DNA of 64,000 nt, from positions 1 through 64,000 of the forward strand of contig MWFC01000003.1 of assembly GCA_002071415.1 (NCBI GenBank), read 5' to 3'. Position numbers and translations under genes: made by a program. The notes below the pieces were generated by a model. The model was not told the DNA's origin, searched no databases, and worked only from the letters and a program-made list of their open reading frames with translations. This stretch comes from Bacteroidetes bacterium ADurb.Bin012 (lineage in GTDB: Bacteria; Bacteroidota; Bacteroidia; Bacteroidales; TTA-H9). Below, piece by piece: positions 49,996-63,805 of this stretch (position 1 is the stretch's first letter; the number at the start of each line of letters is the position of its first letter).

Positions 49996-50738
49996 TTAGA
50001 TAAGATATAAAGATAAAAAAATAAGGACTTCAAAATTCTCAGCGCCATCTGAACTGGTAAGAAGCCAGAGCATCGAGTAGGTAGGGAGATTGCTCCCCCG
50101 CCCTCTCACCCCACCCAGCATGCTCTCGCACCGGACGGTTTCATCTAAGAGTGTAATGCTCCATGGTTTAATGACAAACTGTATAAGCCAACTTCCTTGA
50201 ACCATGCTGTCCCCCATGGCCTGTGGGGCTTTGAGTGTGCCTGACTTTCGCCACCATCCTTTCCCAAAAAACGCAAGTATCCAACTTTGCCACTTCTTCA
50301 CCCATTGCCGTTCCAAAAATTGCTGTAGGATGTAAACCCGTTTGCATTGCTTGAGCCTGATACATCCCAATTTGCGACGTATCCATCCCTCAAGTTCACA
50401 TACAAAAGAGGCGCATTTCGCTGCCTCGTAATACATCAGCCAGCCTCGTAATACAGGATTCAGCTCACAAATAACCTGTGCTGGGCTATCGCTTGTTGGA
50501 TGACTCGGTCGATGATCGTGGGAATACATAACTTGCATAACCCTCCGTTAGGCTCAGTGATTTCTATGAATTTGATACCTTGTGGCAAATAGTTGCCACT
50601 CAGTAAGGAGTGACGTAAGGTGCCCCCATTACGGGTGTACCATTCGACAAATTCTCCTACTCCCATCCCATCAATCCCGCTTACACCCTTCCATTCGCTA
50701 ACACCTCCTCCCAACTCGGCGTGTACAAGAACTTTCAT
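49996..50738 (-). pseudogene. ltrA: Group II intron reverse transcriptase/maturase, internally deleted
   Basis: Two overlapping minus-strand frames are pieces of one LtrA-type gene. The 5' piece (50460-50738) has the RT-0/RT-1 region: VSGIDGMGVGEF and IPTIIDRVIQQAIAQ. The 3' piece (49996-50538) has the maturase domain: LNPVLRGWLMYYE, EGWIRRKLGCIRLKQCKR and FFGKGWWRKSGTLKAPQ. RT motifs 2-7, including the catalytic YADD, and the thumb are missing. The junction, near 50460-50490, deletes roughly 200 or more codons and shifts frame, so the protein cannot reverse transcribe. Confidence 0.82.
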
Positions 50739-53447: not shown

Positions 53448-53705
53448 TTATACCTCGAATTGCATCCGCCTGACTTGAATACCCCCAATTTGATTCAAAG
53501 CACTTTCCAGTTTATCTTGTTCATCTATGGAACCAACAAGTTGGAGCATAATGATCCCCAGCCTCGAACAGACTGCTTCTGTAACTTCATGGAAGCCTAA
53601 ACGCGATTTGATTATATGAGCAAATTCGGATAATACTTTCTGGGTCTGCCCTGCTTCCTTTATGCGGTCGGTTATAAGAATTCCCAGGATTCTGATTTCT
53701 TTCAT
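53448..53705 (-). CDS. TM1266-type iron-only hydrogenase system regulator
   Basis: An 85-residue ACT/NikR-C-like protein: MKEIRILGILITDR at the start, a central helix with LSEFAHIIKSRLGFHEV, then GIIMLQLVGSIDEQDKLESALN. This matches the small family that sits beside hydrogenase maturation genes, called putative iron-only hydrogenase system regulator. It has no DNA-binding domain. It follows hydG by 105 bases, which supports the assignment. Its mechanism is not established. Confidence 0.85.
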   Translation of the reverse strand: MKEIRILGILITDRIKEAGQTQKVLSEFAHIIKSRLGFHEVTEAVCSRLGIIMLQLVGSIDEQDKLESALNQIGGIQVRRMQFEV

Positions 53706-53810: not shown

Positions 53811-55238
53811 TTAAAAATACAGGTCTCTTTCGCCCTGTTTGATTCTTTCGATTCGTCGGCGTATTTCCTGAGTATTAGCTGTATCGCCCAAATGAGCAAG
53901 ATTTTGTTCTATAGCTTTCCAGCCCATTTGTGCAGTATCTTGAGGAGCATAATCCACTAAATATTCCGAAAGCGTTAGCAGCGCATTTGGTGTACAAAAT
54001 CTTTTAATGAATCCGGGAACGCTGAATTCCATGAAATGCTCGCCCGTTCGCCCTATTCGATAGCAAGCCGTACAGAATGAGGGGATGAAGTCGTTTTGAA
54101 TGAGTTCTTCGATGATTTCATTGAGTGAACGGTCGTCGTTAATTTTGAATTGTTCACGGTTAAGGTCTTGTTCTGCATTAAGATTTTGAGAATAGGTACC
54201 CAATTCCAAGCGTGTTCCGCCATCGATCTGAGAAATGCCGAAGGGGATTACTTCTCTGCGTAGCCTTGGGTTTTCTCTGGCGGTTAAAATCATTCCTGTA
54301 TAAGGAACTGCAAGGCGAAGTATGGCTATGAGTTTGGCAAAATCAGCATCATTCACCAGATAACGTCCATCGATATCGAGAGAAGAAGCATTTTGAATTC
54401 TAGGAAAGCTGATAGTATGTGGTCCCACATTGTAACAAGCCTCCAGATGGTTTGCATGTCTTACCAATCCCATCACTTCGAAACGCCAGTCGTATAACCC
54501 TATCAGGGCACCAATTCCTACGTCATCTATCCCTGCTTCCTGAGCTCTGTCGAGGGCAGTAAGACGCCAGTTGAAATCCGTTTTCTTACCTCCAAGATGA
54601 TATGTCTTATAGGCTTCAGGATGATAGGTTTCCTGAAAAATCTGATAAGTGCCAATGCCTGCTTGCTTTACTGTACGGAAACCATCGATATCGAGTGGTG
54701 CTGCATTGATATTCACTCTTCTGATTTCGCCTTTTCCTTTTTTTACTCCACAAACCAAACGAACCGTATGGGCAATATAATTCGCATCGTAATCGGGATG
54801 CTCGCCATAAACCAGGATGAGCCTCTTTTGGCCGTTATCCTCGAGGGCTTCTACTTCCCTGACAATTTCATCGTCAGTCAGGGTTTTTCTCACAGCAGCC
54901 TTGTTGCTTGTTCTGAACCCACAATATTGACAATTATTGGTGCATTTGTTGCCTATGTATAAAGGAGCGAATAAAACGATTCGGTTCCCATAGATTCGTT
55001 TTTTTAATTCACGTGCTCCTTGCTTAATTTCTTCGACAAGGTCGGTTTCGGTCGCATTGATCAACAGCGCAGTCTCTTCAAGTGTCAGCCGATTTTTTTC
55101 GAGCGATTTGGCTATGGTTTCTTTCACTCTTACCCGATCAGGTTTGGTATGATCGAGCAAATCCCAAATCTCATCCGTGTCGATGAAAGGTTTCATTCTT
55201 TCATCCTTCATTCTGCATTTTTCTGGATTAAATTTCAT
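53811..55238 (-). CDS. hydG: [FeFe] hydrogenase H-cluster radical SAM maturase HydG
   Basis: A 475-residue maturase. The SAM cluster is in YIGNKCTNNCQYCGF. The C-terminal auxiliary cluster motif is Cys-X2-Cys-X22-Cys, starting FIPSFCTACYRIGRTGEHF. HydG cleaves tyrosine to make the CO and CN ligands of the H-cluster. The frame opens with a TTG at 55268, but a TAAATTTG promoter box covers that codon (55266-55273), so the ATG at 55238 is the likely start. HydE and HydF, also needed, are not in the window. Confidence 0.92.
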   Translation of the reverse strand: MKFNPEKCRMKDERMKPFIDTDEIWDLLDHTKPDRVRVKETIAKSLEKNRLTLEETALLINATETDLVEEIKQGARELKKRIYGNRIVLFAPLYIGNKCTNNCQYCGFRTSNKAAVRKTLTDDEIVREVEALEDNGQKRLILVYGEHPDYDANYIAHTVRLVCGVKKGKGEIRRVNINAAPLDIDGFRTVKQAGIGTYQIFQETYHPEAYKTYHLGGKKTDFNWRLTALDRAQEAGIDDVGIGALIGLYDWRFEVMGLVRHANHLEACYNVGPHTISFPRIQNASSLDIDGRYLVNDADFAKLIAILRLAVPYTGMILTARENPRLRREVIPFGISQIDGGTRLELGTYSQNLNAEQDLNREQFKINDDRSLNEIIEELIQNDFIPSFCTACYRIGRTGEHFMEFSVPGFIKRFCTPNALLTLSEYLVDYAPQDTAQMGWKAIEQNLAHLGDTANTQEIRRRIERIKQGERDLYF

Positions 55239-55265
55239 TGACCAATTGAATTTAAAATTCTTTTG

Positions 55266-55273
55266 CAAATTTA
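55266..55273 (-). promoter_or_regulatory. -7 box for hydG
   Basis: Minus-strand TAAATTTG fits TAnnTTTG in the short gap after rex, giving hydG and the TM1266-family gene a separate transcription start and a leader of about 20 bases. Confidence 0.5.
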
Positions 55274-55310: not shown

Positions 55311-55946
55311 TTATAGTTGTTTCTTAACGTAATAAGCCACTTTTTCTAAAGAAGTAATCATGTCAATTTCTTCGAGATAGACATGCGGAGGCACATTTAA
55401 TGGTTTTGGGGAGAAATTAAGAATTCCCTTTATTCCGGCCATAACGAGTCGTTCGGCTACGATAGCGGCATTATCAGCCGGAACAGTAATAATAGCTATG
55501 CTAATTTCTTCCTCAACGATGATCTCCTGCATTCTTTCGCTGGAATAACAATGAACACCAGCGTAGATTTTCCCGATCTTATCGGGGTTATTGTCGAATC
55601 CAGCCACGATATTGAGTTTTGATCTCTTACCACTAAAATAGCCAATGAGAGAACGCCCAAGATTCCCAATTCCAACTATGGCAACTTTTAATCCTTCTTC
55701 CGTATCGAGGATCAAACCAATCAGATCTATCAATTCCTTTACATCATAACCTTTTCTTAACGTGCCGGAATAGCCTATGAGCATAAGGTCACGACGCACT
55801 TGTACCGGTGTAATATGATGAATCAGAGCAATCTCATGTGAAAAAATATGATGCTTCCCCTGCGATAAGCATATAAGAAGATTTCGTCGGTATTGGCTCA
55901 ATCTTTCAATGGTTTTATCGGGTAAAGACCTGTGGCTCATCTTCAT
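55311..55946 (-). CDS. rex: Redox-sensing repressor Rex
   Basis: A 211-residue NADH/NAD+-sensing repressor. The N-terminal winged helix includes ITPVQVRRDLMLIGYSGTLRKGYDV; the Rossmann domain has GIGNLGRSLIGYF and the C-terminal GILNFSPKPLNVPPHVYL. Rex leaves DNA when NADH is high, opening fermentation and hydrogenase genes. It is the last gene of the hydCBA-sensor-regulator series, 11 bases after the receiver-kinase hybrid. Two Rex-like palindromes stand before hydC at 63771-63805, so Rex probably controls its own operon. Confidence 0.92.
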   Translation of the reverse strand: MKMSHRSLPDKTIERLSQYRRNLLICLSQGKHHIFSHEIALIHHITPVQVRRDLMLIGYSGTLRKGYDVKELIDLIGLILDTEEGLKVAIVGIGNLGRSLIGYFSGKRSKLNIVAGFDNNPDKIGKIYAGVHCYSSERMQEIIVEEEISIAIITVPADNAAIVAERLVMAGIKGILNFSPKPLNVPPHVYLEEIDMITSLEKVAYYVKKQL

Positions 55947-55957
55947 AGATAAATGAT

Positions 55958-57100
55958 TTATAGAATGATATCGGTTAAGGACTGAACAGGCAGGGTTACG
56001 ATGAAAGTGCTCCCCACGTCAGGTGTACTTTGCACGGATATATTTCCATTATATGTATCGACAATCTTCTTTACAATAGATAATCCCAAACCACTGCCTG
56101 TGATATTTCTTGTCTTTTCATTTTTTATCCTTACAAATTCCTGAAACAGACGAGAGGTTTCTTCTTCGGTCATACCTATTCCGGTATCCGATACTTCGAT
56201 CACTAAATTATTTTCATCCTTATGTATTCTAACAGTAACACTTCCACCTTCCTTATTGTATTTTACCGCGTTTGATATCAAATTATTAAAAATAATTTCC
56301 ATGTCGGAGGCATCGGTTTCAAATTCCAGGTCTTTAGGACAATCGAGCTTTATCTTCACATCACGCTGTATAGCCATAGGTTTTGAAGTATCAATAGAAG
56401 TTTGAGCTATAGCACAAATATTGAGTCTTTCGATTTTCTTTTCTTTTTCACCCGTTTCGATGCGCGTCATATCGAGCAAGTCTAAAATAAGTGTACGCAT
56501 GCCTTTAATACGTGCTAACGAACGGTCGATTACTTGAGCGTAGTCGTCAATTTTATCACCAAGCTGTTTCTCCTTCATCATTTGCAGATACCCTTCTATG
56601 GCATTCAAAGGAGCTTTTAATTCATGACTCAAGACGGATAGAAATTGGAAACGGATTTGTTTCCCGGCAATATTCATTTGCTGGGTCATACGTTTGAGAA
56701 AAATATGTTTTGTCGTAGATTCTATCACCGATCTCAATTCTTGAGGAGTAAAAGGCTTTGGAACGAAGTCGTGTGCCCCATCTTTAGTTGCTCTGACGGC
56801 CAGATCGAGGGAGGCATAGGAAGTAATCATAATGACTACTATGTCGAGTTTTTTGTTCTTAACATACGAAAGCACTTCCACACCCTGGATACCGGGGAGT
56901 TTATTATCGAGCAAGACAATATCGGGCTGATGGTTATTGATGATTTCGATAGCTTCTTCGCCAGTAACAGCGTCGAGTATCTCGAATTCATAAGGTTCGG
57001 TCATAAAGGGATAATCCACTTGGAAATTATCGAGTATGCGATGTATGCCTGAGCGAATGAAAGGCTCATCATCTACTACCAAAATCTTGAGTTTTGCCAT
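55958..57100 (-). CDS. Receiver-histidine kinase hybrid
   Basis: A 380-residue cytoplasmic protein: receiver domain (1-125; Asp65 phosphoacceptor, Lys115 in FVPKPF), HisKA dimerisation domain with His159 in SVLSHELKAPLNAIEG, and HATPase with DTGIGM and GSGLGLSIVKKI. There is no membrane segment and no DNA-binding domain. The receiver in front of the kinase suggests it is controlled by phosphoryl transfer from another kinase, plausibly the hydrogenase-like kinase three genes upstream. Its own target is not visible. Confidence 0.88.
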   Translation of the reverse strand: MAKLKILVVDDEPFIRSGIHRILDNFQVDYPFMTEPYEFEILDAVTGEEAIEIINNHQPDIVLLDNKLPGIQGVEVLSYVKNKKLDIVVIMITSYASLDLAVRATKDGAHDFVPKPFTPQELRSVIESTTKHIFLKRMTQQMNIAGKQIRFQFLSVLSHELKAPLNAIEGYLQMMKEKQLGDKIDDYAQVIDRSLARIKGMRTLILDLLDMTRIETGEKEKKIERLNICAIAQTSIDTSKPMAIQRDVKIKLDCPKDLEFETDASDMEIIFNNLISNAVKYNKEGGSVTVRIHKDENNLVIEVSDTGIGMTEEETSRLFQEFVRIKNEKTRNITGSGLGLSIVKKIVDTYNGNISVQSTPDVGSTFIVTLPVQSLTDIIL

Positions 57101-57114
57101 TTTTGAATATTTTA

Positions 57115-57507
57115 TTATTTTAACAATTTATTGATTTCCCGAATCAATTGGTCGGGACGCAGACCTTTTGGTAAAAACAGGTCGGCCTTGATCCATCGAG
57201 AATTCATGCCCAGTTCTGTTTCAAAACTTATGCCTGTTTCGGCAGTAACAGCAGTAAAAATAATTACAGGAACATCGGGATACAATCTTTTGATTTGATA
57301 GCTCAGAATAAAACCACTATCTTCATTTTCCATCATCAAATCAACTATGGCCAGATCGGGTTTGGTGCGTTCTATGATTTTTTGAGCTTCTCGCTGGCTT
57401 TCGGCCGTAATTACCCGAAATCCATTCTTTTCGAGCAATACCTGCAACTGGAACAAGTAATCGGGATCATCATCGACAATAAAAATCGTTTTCTTATGAG
57501 CTTCCAT
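57115..57507 (-). CDS. Stand-alone response regulator receiver
   Basis: A 130-residue single receiver domain (CheY-like): acidic pocket Asp12-Asp14 region in IFIVDDDPDY, phosphoacceptor Asp56 in LAIVDLMMENED, and Lys in FLPKGLRPD. The insert after Asp56 (MENEDSGF) and the loop with FETELGMNSRW are longer than in CheY. It has no output domain, so it probably passes phosphate to or from the flanking kinases. It lies 27 bases after the sensor kinase and 14 before the hybrid. Confidence 0.88.
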   Translation of the reverse strand: MEAHKKTIFIVDDDPDYLFQLQVLLEKNGFRVITAESQREAQKIIERTKPDLAIVDLMMENEDSGFILSYQIKRLYPDVPVIIFTAVTAETGISFETELGMNSRWIKADLFLPKGLRPDQLIREINKLLK

Positions 57508-57534: not shown

Positions 57535-59529
57535 TTAAACTGAATTGGGGTTGCGGGGTAAGGTAATTGTAAAAATTGTTCCTGTAGGCCCTTCTTCTTT
57601 ATTGTTATTCGACATGACGCTAATCTGGCCTTTGTGCATTTTCACAATTCCATAGATGAGCGGAAGTCCCAAGCCAGTGCCTTTGCCCAGCTCTTTGGTA
57701 GTGTAGAAGGGAGTAAATAGCTTGTCCATATTTTCCTTCTCGATGCCTATGCCTGTATCGGCAACTTTAATAATAACTTCATGAAGATTGTCTTTAAGGG
57801 TGACAGTAATTTCGCCGCCTTCGGGAGGCATAGCTTCAATCGCATTTTTTTCGAGATTTGTCAAAACCTGCATCATCTGTTCTTGATCAAGGAAACAGAT
57901 AGGGTCTTTCATTTCTGAAATCATTCTTGTTTTCACATTATCGGGTTTAACCACCGAATCGAGGCTTCGTTGAACTAATTGTTCCAGATGGGTCTCAGTC
58001 AGATTGACTTGATTTTTACGTGCAAAATTGAGTAAACCACTTACAATTTTCTTACAGCGATTGGCTTGCTCCACAATCAATTCCAGATCCTTACGCAGGG
58101 GATCATTCTCAGGCCGTTCTTCCATCATAATATTAGCATACATTGTAATAACTCCCAAAGGATTATTGAGTTCATGGGCAATACCGGCAGAAAGCTGACC
58201 CATGTGTGCCAATTTTTCCGATTGTTTTAAAGCCGCTTTGGCATGAGCAAGTTTTTCGTTGGTGATGTTCAGGTCATTGATGGATTTATGTAACTTTTCG
58301 ATGGTATAGGGCAGGCACATTTCGGGCTCTGCAAAGCCCTGAGCAATTGCTATGGCATGTTCCTCGCAAGTGTCATAACCGCATGCTCCACAGTTCAAAT
58401 AATCTTGAGGCGAGAGCTTACCTATTTTAACCAATGCTTCCTCGATTTGTTCTTTGGTTGGCAAAGGTTTACGTCTGTCTTCGGGGGTAAAATGTGCACT
58501 GAAATCGAGCTGATCGAATTTTTTTACATAATACTCTCTTTTTTGCTGACTGGTTTGATTCAGTTTCTGCTTTACATAATTGGCCACGAGCGTTCTTCTG
58601 ACGTATCGCTTCCCATTTTTTCCCATACCTGCTCCCATGATGCATCCCTTGCAGCATAATAATTCTAAATGATGAGTACTGACGAGGCCATCGTCGAATT
58701 CTCTAACAGCTTCCTTAAAGCTTGGGCTACCCTCGGCAATAATAATATTCCTTTCTGTTACATCCTCGCGGATATTCGTTGTTTGCAGAAGCCCCCTGCT
58801 CACCGGGAAGATTGCTCCTTTCCCTGCATAAGGAGGATCGAATTCGGAAGGACTTGCATTCTGAGGTGTAATGTCGTACTCATAAAACATCTCGCGAAGT
58901 TCAGTAAAGGTAAGCGCTTCGTCCACTTCAGAGCTCTCGGCCTTTTTAGCTATACACGGGCCAATGAAAACGGTTTTGATATTTTCGCCGTATTCAGCTT
59001 TTACACATCTATTCAAGGCAACCATAGGCGAAACAATAGGCGCCAGCCTATCCACAAGATGGGGATAATAATGCCGGATATAAAAGGTAACCGAAGGGCA
59101 ATCGCTAGTGATGATGCCTTTGTCGGTAGGTTTGTTCATAATTTCGGCATATCTTCGGGCTACCATATCAGCTCCAAAACCCACTTCACATACATATTCA
59201 AATCCCAAAGCTCGCACCATACCAATAAATAAATGGTAATCGCTTATTTCTTCAAATTCGGCCGGAAAACTGGGCGCTATCAATGCTGCAACAGGATCGC
59301 TCCCCTCGAGCAATTCCTTTACTTCGGCTTGAGAATGTAAAAATATCTTGGCTCCCTGGCTGCAAACTCTCACACAATTTCCACAACCTATGCACCGCTC
59401 GCTCATTACCTCAGCCTGCCCATTGACTATACGTATGGCTTTCACTGGGCATTCGCGTACGCAGGTATAACATACCCTACATCGATCCTTCACCGTAAAA
59501 ACCAATTGATTCTTATAGGATTTGCTCAT
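57535..59529 (-). CDS. Sensory [FeFe]-hydrogenase-like histidine kinase
   Basis: A 664-residue soluble fusion. Order: two [4Fe-4S] ferredoxin motifs (Cys17-27; Cys46-56), an [FeFe] hydrogenase large-subunit domain (about 75-320), a third Fe-S module (Cys380, 383, 388, 405; CGACGYDTC), a coiled coil, HisKA with His452 in GIAHELNNPLG, and HATPase (DTGIGI, GKGTGLGLPL). In the H-cluster, the ligands Cys144 (TSDCPS), Cys192 (GPC) and Cys292/296 (LCCKGC) remain, but the proton-relay Cys is Asp143. This fits HydDB group C sensory hydrogenases (kinase-linked). I infer H2 or redox sensing. It overlaps hydA by 17 bases. Confidence 0.85.
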   Translation of the reverse strand: MSKSYKNQLVFTVKDRCRVCYTCVRECPVKAIRIVNGQAEVMSERCIGCGNCVRVCSQGAKIFLHSQAEVKELLEGSDPVAALIAPSFPAEFEEISDYHLFIGMVRALGFEYVCEVGFGADMVARRYAEIMNKPTDKGIITSDCPSVTFYIRHYYPHLVDRLAPIVSPMVALNRCVKAEYGENIKTVFIGPCIAKKAESSEVDEALTFTELREMFYEYDITPQNASPSEFDPPYAGKGAIFPVSRGLLQTTNIREDVTERNIIIAEGSPSFKEAVREFDDGLVSTHHLELLCCKGCIMGAGMGKNGKRYVRRTLVANYVKQKLNQTSQQKREYYVKKFDQLDFSAHFTPEDRRKPLPTKEQIEEALVKIGKLSPQDYLNCGACGYDTCEEHAIAIAQGFAEPEMCLPYTIEKLHKSINDLNITNEKLAHAKAALKQSEKLAHMGQLSAGIAHELNNPLGVITMYANIMMEERPENDPLRKDLELIVEQANRCKKIVSGLLNFARKNQVNLTETHLEQLVQRSLDSVVKPDNVKTRMISEMKDPICFLDQEQMMQVLTNLEKNAIEAMPPEGGEITVTLKDNLHEVIIKVADTGIGIEKENMDKLFTPFYTTKELGKGTGLGLPLIYGIVKMHKGQISVMSNNNKEEGPTGTIFTITLPRNPNSV

Positions 59530-61252
59530 TCCCTTCCATTTTTTTTTCTAATCTTCTTCTATGCAAAAACTCAACGGCCTTGTTACTCAAAGGTGCATCA
59601 AAATATTTTTGGTACAGTTCATGAACAATAGGATTTTTGTGGGCTACACGGATATTTTCCTTTTCGTCCATTTCATAAAGAACTTTACTACGGGTTTTAA
59701 TATCCTTATCACTGGCGCCAATTTTTTGTCCTCCTCCATTGATACAGCCGCCAGGGCACGCCATCACTTCTATAAAATTTAAATTTTTCTTGCCCGCTTC
59801 AATTTCTTTCAATAATTTTTGAACCTGACTCATGCCGCTTACCACAGCAGTTTTTACTTTGTATTTTCCTGCCTCCATGGTAAAAAATTTGGGCCCGCTG
59901 CCTGAACGGACTTCTCCAATTTTATAAGGTTCAAGCTCCACGCCCGTCAGTAAGAAATACACCGTACGTAAAATGGCTTCAGTTACTCCACCCGATACTC
60001 CATAAAGTTTGGCAGCCGTACTTCGAATATGAAACGGACTATGTGGCAGCATGGGCTCGATATTATTCACATCTATTCCATACAACTTGATAAACCTGGC
60101 TAATTCACGCGTAGTAAGCACGGCATCAGTCATATTAAGGTCATCTATCAACATTTCCTGCCTCAATATCTCATACTTTTTAGCTGTACAAGGCATCAAC
60201 CCAACAGTGTAAATATCCTCCGCTCTCAGACGCATTTCGCTGGCATAGATTTTCTTGATCAAGACGCTCATTATCTGCTGGGGCGACAATACAGGACTGA
60301 TACAAGGTAAAATCGAGGGATGAAAGGTTTCGGCATAATGCAACCATGAAGGACAGCAGGAAGTAAACATAGGCATGCTTTCTCCCTCACGAATTTGTTT
60401 GGCCAACAAAGAAGCATTTTCCAAAATATTCAAGTCGGTAGCTAAACCTGTATCGAAAACCTTAGAAAAGCCAATTTTACTCAGTGCTGCAACTATAATA
60501 TGATCCGCAGTTTTACCTGCCTTGATTCCAAGATTTTCGTTAAGCCCCACGCTCAATGCAGGGGAAAATTGCGCTACCAGATGTTTCTCTGGATTATGCA
60601 AAGCTTCTTGCACTTTTGCAATGTGTTGCTGTTCCGAGAGAGCACCCGTAGGACAGATCAATATACATTGCCCGCAATGATGACAATTTCTCGAACTTAA
60701 TCCATGATTATATGAGGTTCCTATAGTCATCTGGTTGCCTCTGCCAATAAAGTCAACGGCTGCAACCACCTGCTCGGTTTCGCAAAGTCTGACACAACGG
60801 CCGCATAATATGCATTTGGATGGTTCACGCATGATGCTAACGCTTGCATAATCATTCTTTAAAGTATTCTTACTTCCGCTAAAACGTTTTTCCCTTAAAT
60901 TCAGATCGATAGCAAGGTTTTGTAATTCACAGTTTCCATTGCGTCCACAATAAAGGCAATCGTCGGGATGATTAGAGAGAAGCATTTCCGCTATAGCTCT
61001 TCTTGCTCTGATAACACGAGGTGAATGGGTTTTTATTTTCATCCATTCTTCCACCGGATGGGAACAAGATGGCACTAAATCGGGCCGGCCTTCCACTTCT
61101 ACCACACATATCCTGCAAGCACCCGTTGGAGAATATCCTTCAATATGACAAAGCGTGGGAACAAATACCCCATTCCTTTTCAAGCATTCAAGGATGGTTT
61201 CACCCCTTTGGGCAGTAATGACCTTATTATTAACTTCTATCGAAAACAACAT
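59513..61252 (-). CDS. hydA: NAD-linked [FeFe] hydrogenase catalytic subunit HydA
   Basis: A 579-residue enzyme. N-terminal [2Fe-2S] (Cys35, 46, 49, 63), His-Cys3 cluster (HPDDCLYCGRNGNC), two [4Fe-4S] motifs (CILCGRC; CHHCGQC), then the H-cluster domain. H-cluster ligands are Cys300 (TSCCPSW), Cys355 (MPCTAKKYE), Cys499 and Cys503 (EVMACPGGCINGGG), with proton-relay Cys299 intact, giving the numbering of clostridial CpI. This numbering supports the start at 61252 over one at 61318, which would overlap hydB. With HydB and HydC it should form a trimeric, probably electron-bifurcating, NADH/ferredoxin-linked hydrogenase (group A3). Confidence 0.93.
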   Translation of the reverse strand: MLFSIEVNNKVITAQRGETILECLKRNGVFVPTLCHIEGYSPTGACRICVVEVEGRPDLVPSCSHPVEEWMKIKTHSPRVIRARRAIAEMLLSNHPDDCLYCGRNGNCELQNLAIDLNLREKRFSGSKNTLKNDYASVSIMREPSKCILCGRCVRLCETEQVVAAVDFIGRGNQMTIGTSYNHGLSSRNCHHCGQCILICPTGALSEQQHIAKVQEALHNPEKHLVAQFSPALSVGLNENLGIKAGKTADHIIVAALSKIGFSKVFDTGLATDLNILENASLLAKQIREGESMPMFTSCCPSWLHYAETFHPSILPCISPVLSPQQIMSVLIKKIYASEMRLRAEDIYTVGLMPCTAKKYEILRQEMLIDDLNMTDAVLTTRELARFIKLYGIDVNNIEPMLPHSPFHIRSTAAKLYGVSGGVTEAILRTVYFLLTGVELEPYKIGEVRSGSGPKFFTMEAGKYKVKTAVVSGMSQVQKLLKEIEAGKKNLNFIEVMACPGGCINGGGQKIGASDKDIKTRSKVLYEMDEKENIRVAHKNPIVHELYQKYFDAPLSNKAVEFLHRRRLEKKMEGNEQIL

Positions 61253-61287
61253 GGAACTTCTTTTAATTATAGATATAAACCCTTGAT

Positions 61288-63234
61288 TCAATGAACAGAA
61301 ACTGCATCGAATTTGCAAACATCATAGCATATACCACAGCCAATACACTTGTCCTGCACAATGAAGTGTGGATTGCGCTGAGTGCCTATAATAGCCGAAG
61401 TAGGACACTTGCGGTAGCATATTGTACATCCGGTACATTTTTCAGTATGAATATAGAACGTCCTGAGTCCATTGCAGACATTGGCTCTGCATTTACGTTC
61501 GAAAATATGTTCTTCGTATTCATCACGAAAATATCTGAGAGTGCTGATAACGGGATTAGGTGCGGTTTTCCCAAGTCCACACAAAGAAGTTTCGGCAACT
61601 ACTGTAGCCAATTCTTCAAGCATAAGAACGCCCTTGAATCTTTCGAGAGATTGATGTTCTTGACCTTCAACGGGTTTCTTGGTTATCGACTCGAGAATTT
61701 CCCACATTCTACGCGTTCCTTCTCGGCATGGAATACATTTACCACAACTTTCGTGCTGAAGAAAATTCATAAAGAACCGTGCAATATCCACCATACAGGC
61801 AGATTCATCCATAACTACCAATCCTCCACTCCCCATCATGGCGCCTTCCTGCTTAAGCGACTCATAATCAATGTGGAGGTCCAGACAAGCCTCACCTAAG
61901 CATGCTCCCGAAGGCCCACCTATCTGCATGGCTTTGAAATCCTTAAAATCCTTTATCCCTCCACAAATATCATAAATAATTTCACGAAATGACCTACCCA
62001 TTTCTATTTCTACCAATCCATTGTATTCAACTTTTCCCGTAACGGCAAAGACTTTCGTGCCATGGCTAGTCGGAGTTCCCAAACCGGCAAACCACGTCGG
62101 ACCATTCTGGATAATCAATGGAACATTAGCCAAAGTTTCCACATTATTTATCACCGTAGGATGGCTAAAAAGACCCTGAGTGGCCGGATATGGGGGTTTG
62201 GGCTCGGGAGTTCCTCTTCTTCCTTCCATATTGTTGATCAAAGCAGTTTCTTCACCACAGACAAAGGCACCCGAGCCCATCTTGATATTCAGGTAAAAAT
62301 TTACACTACTATCCAAAATATTGCTGCCGATCAACCCAAATTCCTTTGCACTGTCTATCGCATTTTTTAGAGTTTGTATGGCTTTTTTATATTCTGAACG
62401 GATATAGATAAAAGCCTGGCTTGCTCCAACTGCATATGCAGCTATGGCAATTCCTTCGATAAGTTTATGTGGATCGCCCTCAATAAGCGCCCTGTCCATG
62501 AATGCGCCAGGATCGCTTTCATCGGCATTGCAAATCAGATATTTCTGATCACTTTGGGTTTGACGGGCAATCATCCATTTTTTACCTGTAGCATAACCCC
62601 CGCCTCCGCGTCCCCTTAATCCACTCTGCTCGATAATCTCGCAAATCTCCGTAGACGTATAGTTCTGAATTGCTTTTGCATAAGCCTTGTATCCGCCCCT
62701 TGCCAGATATTCTTCAATGCTCGAAGGATTGATCAAACCACAGTTTTCCAAAACCAAACGTTTCTGTTTCTTGAAAAATGGCAAGCGATTGATAAAAGGA
62801 ACATCTTCCCAGGGAACTAAATGCCGAGATTCGAATTGCCCCAAAACATCGACTGAATCAATAGTATTGTTGAATACAGCGTCGAGCAAAGAATAGACCT
62901 TCTCCGGCGTAATATTCTTAAAGGATATCCTATTCTTACCTGGTAATTGAACATCAACAATGGGTTCGAACTGGCATAAACCTATGCAACCGACCTCTAC
63001 CACATCGGCCTTCATCAAATGATCATTCAGGTACATTTGAATGCTTAGCATGGTTTGACTTGCTCCAGCAATCATTCCGCATGTTCCAGCACCTACGAAA
63101 ATAGTCGGCCTTTCAACCTTTTCACGCCTCAGCAAGGCCACTCTTTCTGCCGTTTGGTGACTGTATTGATCTGGTGGAATCAACAATATGTCGGCAATAT
63201 ATGGGTTCCGATTTTTTTTTGTTTCCTTGCTCAT
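61288..63234 (-). CDS. hydB: HydB, NuoF-like NADH/FMN subunit
   Basis: A 648-residue subunit. The N-terminal thioredoxin-like [2Fe-2S] domain (about 40-125) has Cys in GAGTCGMIAGA, VGCIGLC, one Cys fewer than the NuoE pattern, a variant I recall from other HydB proteins. The FMN/NAD site is in GLRGRGGGGYATGKKW with AICNADES-like LICNADESDPGAF. SLBB and the [4Fe-4S] CGKCIPCREGT follow, and two C-terminal [4Fe-4S] motifs (CTGCTICYRKCP; CIGCGICYDVCK) close the protein. It exchanges electrons between NADH, ferredoxin and HydA. It starts three bases after hydC. Confidence 0.93.
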   Translation of the reverse strand: MSKETKKNRNPYIADILLIPPDQYSHQTAERVALLRREKVERPTIFVGAGTCGMIAGASQTMLSIQMYLNDHLMKADVVEVGCIGLCQFEPIVDVQLPGKNRISFKNITPEKVYSLLDAVFNNTIDSVDVLGQFESRHLVPWEDVPFINRLPFFKKQKRLVLENCGLINPSSIEEYLARGGYKAYAKAIQNYTSTEICEIIEQSGLRGRGGGGYATGKKWMIARQTQSDQKYLICNADESDPGAFMDRALIEGDPHKLIEGIAIAAYAVGASQAFIYIRSEYKKAIQTLKNAIDSAKEFGLIGSNILDSSVNFYLNIKMGSGAFVCGEETALINNMEGRRGTPEPKPPYPATQGLFSHPTVINNVETLANVPLIIQNGPTWFAGLGTPTSHGTKVFAVTGKVEYNGLVEIEMGRSFREIIYDICGGIKDFKDFKAMQIGGPSGACLGEACLDLHIDYESLKQEGAMMGSGGLVVMDESACMVDIARFFMNFLQHESCGKCIPCREGTRRMWEILESITKKPVEGQEHQSLERFKGVLMLEELATVVAETSLCGLGKTAPNPVISTLRYFRDEYEEHIFERKCRANVCNGLRTFYIHTEKCTGCTICYRKCPTSAIIGTQRNPHFIVQDKCIGCGICYDVCKFDAVSVH

Positions 63235-63237
63235 GGT

Positions 63238-63699
63238 CTATTCTTCAAAATTGGATAAGTGTTCCAGAATCTGACGCAATTTTTCGGGCGTCACTTTATT
63301 GTAATATCGATCGTTGATTTCCATGGCCGGGGCTTGGCTGCATGCACCCATACACTCCACAAACTCTAGTTCGTACTCGTTGTCCTTCGTCCTTTGGCCG
63401 GGTTCAATACCGATTTGTTTTTTAATCTCACGGGCTACTAAAGATGAACCCATAATATGGCATGCTGTTCCTTCGCAAATTCTTATCGTCTTTCGTGCTC
63501 GTGGTGAAAACTTGAATTGATCGTAAAATGTAGCTATCGAATAAATTCTGTTCTCGGGAATACCCAAACAATAACTGACTTTATGTATAGATTCAGCGTT
63601 CAAATACCCCTCTTCCTCCTGTATTTCCTGCAGAACTGAGAGTAAGGCTTCTTTCCCTGCTCCAAGGTATCTATCGATTATATTTTGAACTCTATCCAT
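63238..63699 (-). CDS. hydC: HydC, NuoE-like [2Fe-2S] subunit
   Basis: A 153-residue thioredoxin-like ferredoxin. A helical N-terminus (LLSVLQEIQEEEGYL) precedes the complete four-Cys pattern: CEGTACHIMG (Cys-X4-Cys) and ECMGACSQAP (Cys-X3-Cys). In HydABC hydrogenases this subunit carries electrons to the flavin subunit. It is the first gene of the operon running hydC-hydB-hydA-sensor kinase-receiver-hybrid kinase-rex. Confidence 0.92.
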   Translation of the reverse strand: MDRVQNIIDRYLGAGKEALLSVLQEIQEEEGYLNAESIHKVSYCLGIPENRIYSIATFYDQFKFSPRARKTIRICEGTACHIMGSSLVAREIKKQIGIEPGQRTKDNEYELEFVECMGACSQAPAMEINDRYYNKVTPEKLRQILEHLSNFEE

Positions 63700-63770: not shown

Positions 63771-63788
63771 TTGTTATTGAAATAACAT
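63771..63788. promoter_or_regulatory. Rex-like operator 1 upstream of hydC
   Basis: TTGTTATTGAAATAACAT, an 18-base inverted repeat (arms TTGTTATT and AATAACAT, 2-base centre). It matches the known Rex form TTGTTAN6TAACAA except for the last base, and lies 72 bases before hydC. Confidence 0.55.
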
Positions 63789-63805
63789 TGTGAAATACTT
63801 AACAT
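63788..63805. promoter_or_regulatory. Rex-like operator 2 upstream of hydC
   Basis: TTGTGAAATACTTAACAT, same 18-base length and same TTGT...AACAT ends as operator 1, sharing one base with it. The 5' half equals the classic Rex half-site TTGTGA; the 3' half is less well conserved. Confidence 0.45.

Follow-up and report, generated by a model that had tools for sequence, protein, structure and literature searches.

TmHydS and TamHydS, the characterised [FeFe]-type "sensory hydrogenases", carry no attached output domain with which their putative H2 sensing and signalling could be assayed. In the window, the whole 64,000-nucleotide stretch of DNA that was analysed, the gene at 57535-59529 on the minus strand encodes a hydrogenase-like Fe-S protein that continues directly into a histidine kinase, hereafter called HydSK. 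A single soluble protein having both an H-cluster domain (H-domain) and a complete histidine kinase would allow a direct read-out by autophosphorylation, and its conserved response regulator (RR) and REC-kinase (REC-HK) offer a downstream assay. The HydSK family, analysed here as the best 80 of at least 585 relatives found in a scan of 84,980 species genomes, spans about 20 phyla and is nearly always located beside a bifurcating-type hydrogenase.

The fusion had been proposed in the initial annotation and proved to be real. The ORF starts with ATG, encodes 664 amino acid residues in a single frame, contains Pfam domains of both parts, and has full-length orthologs. Two N-terminal [4Fe-4S] ferredoxin-type motifs were located in residues 12-60 (59350..59496, minus strand, as are all features of HydSK; Fer4-type Pfam match at residues 13-60), with C17, C20, C23, C27, C46, C49, C52, and C56 as the cluster Cys residues. 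They are followed by the H-domain, Fe_hyd_lg_C, in residues 79-300 (58630..59295; E-value 2e-43, 149 bits against a cut-off of 22). A C-terminal [4Fe-4S] motif (PF04060, 4e-9) in residues 378-407 (58309..58398) lies between the H-domain and the kinase. Its ligands, C380, C383, C388, and C405, have the Cx2Cx4Cx16C spacing given for M2e and M2f proteins in the available part of PMC8163306. The kinase consists of HisKA in residues 443-506 (58012..58203; 1e-14), containing the phosphoacceptor H452, and HATPase_c in residues 548-660 (57550..57888; 6e-25). Thus, the three additional Fe-S motifs that had been described are present, but only one of them links the H-cluster to the kinase, and the other two are N-terminal of the H-domain. 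The kinase is joined without a PAS domain, as had been stated: Pfam detected no PAS domain in HydSK or in any of the 49 scanned family members, all of which showed the same architecture. NCBIfam gave hydrogenase and sensor-kinase models, and those listed were all under their own family cut-offs; thus, no curated name fits HydSK.

The structure of HydSK was modelled by AlphaFold2 using an alignment of 49 locus-derived sequences. The mean pLDDT was 86.9 and the pTM was 0.67, and the H-domain blocks were mostly above 90. Residues of about 5-351 matched CpI, DdH, and CbA5H by Foldseek and VIA-align (CpI, 4xdc: Z 36.6, rmsd 2.9, 345 residues), and the kinase part matched ZraS by Foldseek. A single helix of residues 406-471 starts after C405, the last Fe-S ligand, and contains H452. 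The pLDDT of this helix falls to 57-70 across about 421-460, which counts against the sensor mechanism proposed below; such a drop would be expected when a monomer model is built of a coiled coil.

The residues of the active site were examined in an alignment of 100 sequences. The four H-cluster ligands, C144, C192, C293, and C296, were invariant (100/100), in agreement with the initial annotation, which had overlooked the shortening of the L3 motif described below. K195 (CpI K358), G190, E198, and P86 were also found in 100/100 sequences and S87 in 97/100 (P86 and S87 correspond to CpI P231 and S232), and P191, G295, and all 12 Cys residues of the accessory clusters, including the eight N-terminal ones (each 100/100), did not vary. 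The residues needed for a complete H-cluster pocket are thus kept over about 20 phyla.

At the proton-relay position (CpI C299), HydSK has Asp, as had been noted: D143 directly precedes the first cluster ligand C144 (CpI C300; 59098..59103). Asp was found at this position in 51/100 sequences, which are those of Bacteroidales, and the others had T, S, A, P, or N. Asp is thus a trait of the Bacteroidales clade, and three changes on the tree are enough to account for it. Among the sensory sequences in HydDB, only 17% have Cys at this position (PMC10055695). In CaHydA, Asp was the only substitution of C298 that kept the enzyme efficient (PMC3485046), and in CpI C299D (PDB 6glz) the carboxylate forms a hydrogen bond with the adt amine, with 30-80% activity reported for two such variants (PMC6226526). 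D143 was considered as a sign of an inactive site, and this was rejected because the C298D and C299D enzymes retain activity and a crystal structure of C299D contains the cluster (PMC3485046, PMC6226526). Asp being the one substitution that leaves hydrogenases active, D143 is no mark of lost function. These engineered group A enzymes share the TS-D-C-P motif with HydSK but keep the relay residues E279, S319, and E282, whereas in HydSK S319 is replaced by A163 and the E279 position is not Glu. The absence of the rest of the group A relay, which is the case in other sensory forms as well, counts against H2 sensing.

The L3 motif, C292-C293-K-G-C296 (58642..58656), is one residue shorter than the canonical CPGGC. 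In independent phmmer alignments to group A structures, C293 corresponded to CpI C499, C296 to C503, and C292 to A498, and the stretch from C293 to C296 lacked one residue. Instead of the canonical CxxxC spacing, the family has C-x-G-C, and one relative (L114) retains CKGGC. This shortened loop was also counted against H2 sensing. C292 was rejected as a cluster ligand since its CpI counterpart is A498 and the residue varies in the family (C, F, A, S, and T in 67, 14, 10, 8, and 1 of the 100 sequences, respectively).

In the kinase part, H452, E453, N456, and D591 were found in 100/100 sequences, and N562, G617, G619, and G621 in 99/100, with one gapped row. HydSK therefore has the H-box His and the N, G1, and G2 boxes of a HisKA sensor kinase (H452, N562, D591-G593-G595, and G617-G619-G621, conserved at 99-100%). 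Autokinase activity is expected because its ATP-binding boxes are fully conserved.

Full-length orthologs with 50-89% identity were found in 23 of 60 genomes searched, counting the source genome, and across many genomes the identity ranged from 89% to about 41%. In 198 genomes drawn across the phylum, 12 or 13 had orthologs (one match was partial). The best 80 of the at least 585 relatives belong to Bacteroidota, Planctomycetota, Hydrogenedentota, Lentisphaerota, Kiritimatiellota, Myxococcota, Desulfobacteraceae, Elusimicrobiota, Melainabacteria, Ignavibacteria, KSB1, WOR-3, Acidobacteriota, Fermentibacteria, Eisenbacteria, Chitinispirillaceae, Anaerolineae, and others. A chance fusion or a frame artefact was rejected on the basis of the full-length orthologs in the 23 genomes and the 80 loci in this other collection.

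The genes form a tight operon in the order hydC-hydB-hydA-HydSK-RR-REC-HK-rex-hydG, in which HydSK comes fourth, all on the minus strand. The thioredoxin-like [2Fe-2S] protein HydC (63238..63699), the NuoF-like FMN/Fe-S subunit HydB (61288..63234), and the bifurcating-type [FeFe]-hydrogenase catalytic subunit HydA (59513..61318) were assigned by Pfam and NCBIfam, and HydA also by its motifs, which are canonical (TSCCPSW, LMPCTAKK, and VMACPGGC). hydSK overlaps hydA by 17 nt. Downstream are genes for a single-domain RR with D56 (57115..57507) and a REC-HisKA-HATPase protein, REC-HK, with D65 and H159 (55958..57100), both identified by Pfam and neighbourhood. These are followed by genes for the NADH/NAD+ redox repressor Rex (55311..55946; NCBIfam), the H-cluster maturase HydG (53811..55268; TIGR03955, 490 bits), and a TM1266/CPF_0552-like hydrogenase-associated small protein (53448..53705; just under the curated cut-offs). 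With HydG in the operon and the genes for HydE and HydF elsewhere in the same genome, H-cluster maturation is possible. A motif scan gave two adjacent Rex-operator-like palindromes upstream of hydC (63771..63805, unstranded), TTGTTATTGAAATAACAT and TTGTGAAATACTTAACAT. Four Rex-like matches were found in 20 kb against 1.24 expected, and four were reached in 9 of 200 shuffles; the two sites are candidate Rex operators, for which these counts are suggestive only. No Rfam elements were detected in the window.

This arrangement is conserved in the family. HydA was encoded upstream of HydSK in 60/68 loci. An RR gene was present within 1 kb in 52/65 loci, REC-HK, the most conserved downstream neighbour, was encoded in 64/65 loci, and the phosphoacceptors RR D56 and REC-HK D65 and H159 were at least 95% conserved. 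In one locus (L087), HydSK was located apart from HydABC. When all the neighbours were clustered, the only other conserved regulators to emerge were Rex, in 34 loci, and the PAS-type paralog HydSP with a SpoIIE protein, the latter two in Bacteroidales. A conserved DNA-binding response regulator was looked for in the cluster and was not found, which counts against the sensor kinase proposed below, since it leaves the output of the kinase unaccounted for. Among the HydA proteins of these loci, some catalytic subunits (L015/L047, L077, L043/L021, and L082) naturally have Asp at the C299 position, in the motifs TSDCPGW, TGDCPAW, and SSDCPAW, and in many other relatives Ser takes the place of the C300 ligand (TSCSPGW). 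The pocket of HydA from L117 is largely altered.

The novelty of this protein had been overstated in the initial annotation. A kinase-fused H-domain protein beside a bifurcating hydrogenase is already published, and HydSK is another member: the available text of PMC11406978 (2024) describes BfuT, group C3 [FeFe]-hydrogenases beside bfuABC, of which sub-type V carries a His-kinase domain and occurs in Hydrogenedentota, Calditrichota, and Bacteroidota. As in sub-type V, HydSK combines an H-domain with a His-kinase domain and is encoded directly downstream of bfuA/hydA, with the overlap and linkage given above; the source genome adds one more member from Bacteroidota, and this one carries Asp at the relay position. 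Two of our relatives, L086 (CSSed162cmA_463) and L102 (Perlabentimonas gracilis), are from genomes named there, and Bacteroidota such as P. gracilis are described as having two bfuT genes, the second being upstream of bfuC, as in the source genome. That text places the kinase-fused form in C3, whereas HydDB, in the part of PMC5037454 available, gives the name "histidine kinase-linked" to C1 and "phosphatase-linked" to C3, both as putative. The accessible text of PMC11406978 mentions neither the RR nor the REC-kinase, and likewise neither the SpoIIE phosphatase nor the C-x-G-C loop. The RR/REC-HK pair, this loop, and the contrast between HydSK and HydSP were not found in the available parts of PMC5037454, PMC11406978, PMC8163306, and PMC13104023. 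Relative to these texts, the conservation of RR and REC-HK as partners, the shortening of L3, and the way in which HydSK differs from the PAS paralog are new. No experiments on any kinase-fused member were found in the literature.

HydSK has the Fe_hyd_lg_C domain and four ligating Cys residues of the [FeFe]-hydrogenase superfamily, and the assigned affinity to sensory, group C-like proteins was supported. Like group C (M2f) proteins, as defined in the available part of PMC8163306, HydSK has two [4Fe-4S] clusters, an H-domain, and a Cx2Cx4Cx16C cluster, with all three of CpI C299, M353, and M497 altered (D143, G190, and L291, respectively), but it lacks the PAS domain after the C-terminal cluster. 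Group D (M2e) has Ser or Thr at CpI M353, whereas G190 was found in 100/100 sequences. TmHydS (group C, M2f) resembles HydSK in having two N-terminal clusters, an H-domain, a C-terminal cluster of four Cys residues, Gly at M353, a non-Cys residue at C299, and a location beside another hydrogenase, but it contains PAS, lacks a fused kinase, and has Ala131 at the relay and Ser267 at M497 in place of Asp143 and Leu291 (PMC10055695). TamHydS (group D, M2e), as far as the available texts describe it, lacks PAS, as HydSK does, and has the Cx2Cx4Cx16C cluster and Leu at M497, but it has no fused kinase, and it has Ser/Thr instead of Gly190 and Ala137 instead of Asp143 (PMC8163306, PMC13104023). In vitro, an H-cluster can be assembled in both proteins, which have related architectures, and both of them react with H2 (PMC10055695; available part of PMC8163306), and a signalling role has been proposed for the C-terminal cluster of sensory forms in the texts available (PMC8163306, PMC13104023). 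The [NiFe] regulatory hydrogenase is group 2b in HydDB (available part of PMC5037454). HydSK differs from HoxBC/HoxJ in being one polypeptide of the [FeFe] type without PAS, whereas the latter consists of an unrelated [NiFe] enzyme and a separate PAS-bearing kinase. In the HoxBC and HoxJ system, a hydrogenase-type H2 sensor drives a histidine kinase, as is proposed for HydSK.

HydSP is encoded divergently from hydC, just past the end of the window (plus strand, contig positions 64438-66315, L036:6438-8315; Pfam), and its domains include PAS_8, unlike those of HydSK. It is directly followed by a gene for a 394-aa protein with a SpoIIE (PP2C-type) phosphatase domain (L036:8334-9518, plus strand), and this linkage is conserved in Bacteroidales. 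An ORF for an 82-aa thioredoxin-like [2Fe-2S] ferredoxin lies between hydC and HydSP (L036:6163-6411, plus strand). In a set of 37 relatives of HydSP that includes one or two divergent sequences, the K358 equivalent was lost in 36, and at least one H-cluster ligand was lost in 13, three of these having lost most or all. HydSP of the source genome has the four Cys residues, with Ala at K358 and Leu at C299. In a tree made by a quick method, HydSP was placed inside the spread of HydSK with weak support (81). The residue losses suggest that HydSK is under selection for a full H-cluster and that this selection has been relaxed in HydSP.

An H2- or redox-to-phosphorylation switch, as initially proposed, is plausible judging from the sequence. 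We consider that HydSK is probably a soluble histidine kinase acting as a sensor for the hydrogenase operon, with a sensory-type [FeFe]-hydrogenase module as its H2- or redox-responsive input. Such a sensor would inform an anaerobic bacterium of its supply of H2 or reductant. HydE, HydF, and HydG would load the H-cluster into HydSK. H2, or the ferredoxin- or NADH-linked redox state set by HydABC, would then shift the charge of the H-cluster and the [4Fe-4S] chain, and the C-terminal cluster (C380-C405) may relay the change mechanically to the long helix starting at C405. As this helix runs into the DHp helix with H452, autophosphorylation may go up or down. The phosphate would pass to the adjacent RR, the REC domain of REC-HK, or both, which together with Rex may tune the expression or activity of HydABC.

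Nar1-like proteins have an H-domain that holds only a [4Fe-4S] cluster. The H-domain of HydSK might likewise hold this cluster alone, and the protein would then sense the redox state of the ferredoxin or NADH pool without H2 chemistry, with kinase activity set by electrons that its N-terminal clusters receive from either ferredoxin or HydABC. The C-x-G-C loop, the lost group A relay, and the free variation of position 143 outside Bacteroidales are in line with this, and the neighbouring PAS paralogs show that the architecture can persist without a full H-cluster. It is nevertheless rather unlikely because HydSK retains K195, P86, and S87 of the diiron pocket, which a [4Fe-4S]-only protein would not need, and because an active H-cluster is still formed in TmHydS, even though this protein has Ala at the relay and Gly at M353 (PMC10055695).

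The complete, conserved kinase and the dedicated REC partners in 64/65 loci, together with the separation from HydABC in L087, make it improbable that HydSK mainly serves HydABC as a bound regulatory subunit or electron partner that oxidises or produces H2 slowly and signals only in second place. That role would fit the translational overlap with hydA, the near-universal HydABC linkage, and the slow H2 turnover of sensory HydS enzymes (available part of PMC8163306), and one group has raised a possible metabolic role of C1 proteins in such clusters (PMC8542988). The invariant HExxN motif (H452-E453-N456) and the second kinase downstream in 64/65 loci would suit a protein acting mainly as a phosphatase of RR~P that opposes REC-HK, the H-domain only gating it. 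The motif is as in bifunctional HisKA kinases, but full conservation of the ATP-binding boxes makes this role very improbable.

The Bacteroidales locus could contain an opposed pair of sensors: HydSK as a true H-cluster H2 sensor, and HydSP/SpoIIE, which would read redox through [4Fe-4S] clusters only because the diiron site is lost. Both would use the same RR and REC-kinase, comparing H2 with reductant supply; we regard this arrangement as unlikely.

Elsewhere in the window, the minus strand at 49996-50738 carries what is left of a group II intron maturase/reverse transcriptase. A neighbouring 92-aa ORF has no Pfam match and resembles an N-terminal piece of reverse transcriptase, and one short ORF contains a GIIM domain. 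The same genome encodes five H-domain proteins in all, and two further group A [FeFe]-hydrogenase catalytic subunits were found on other contigs (C14:40227-41138 and C2:38617-39489).
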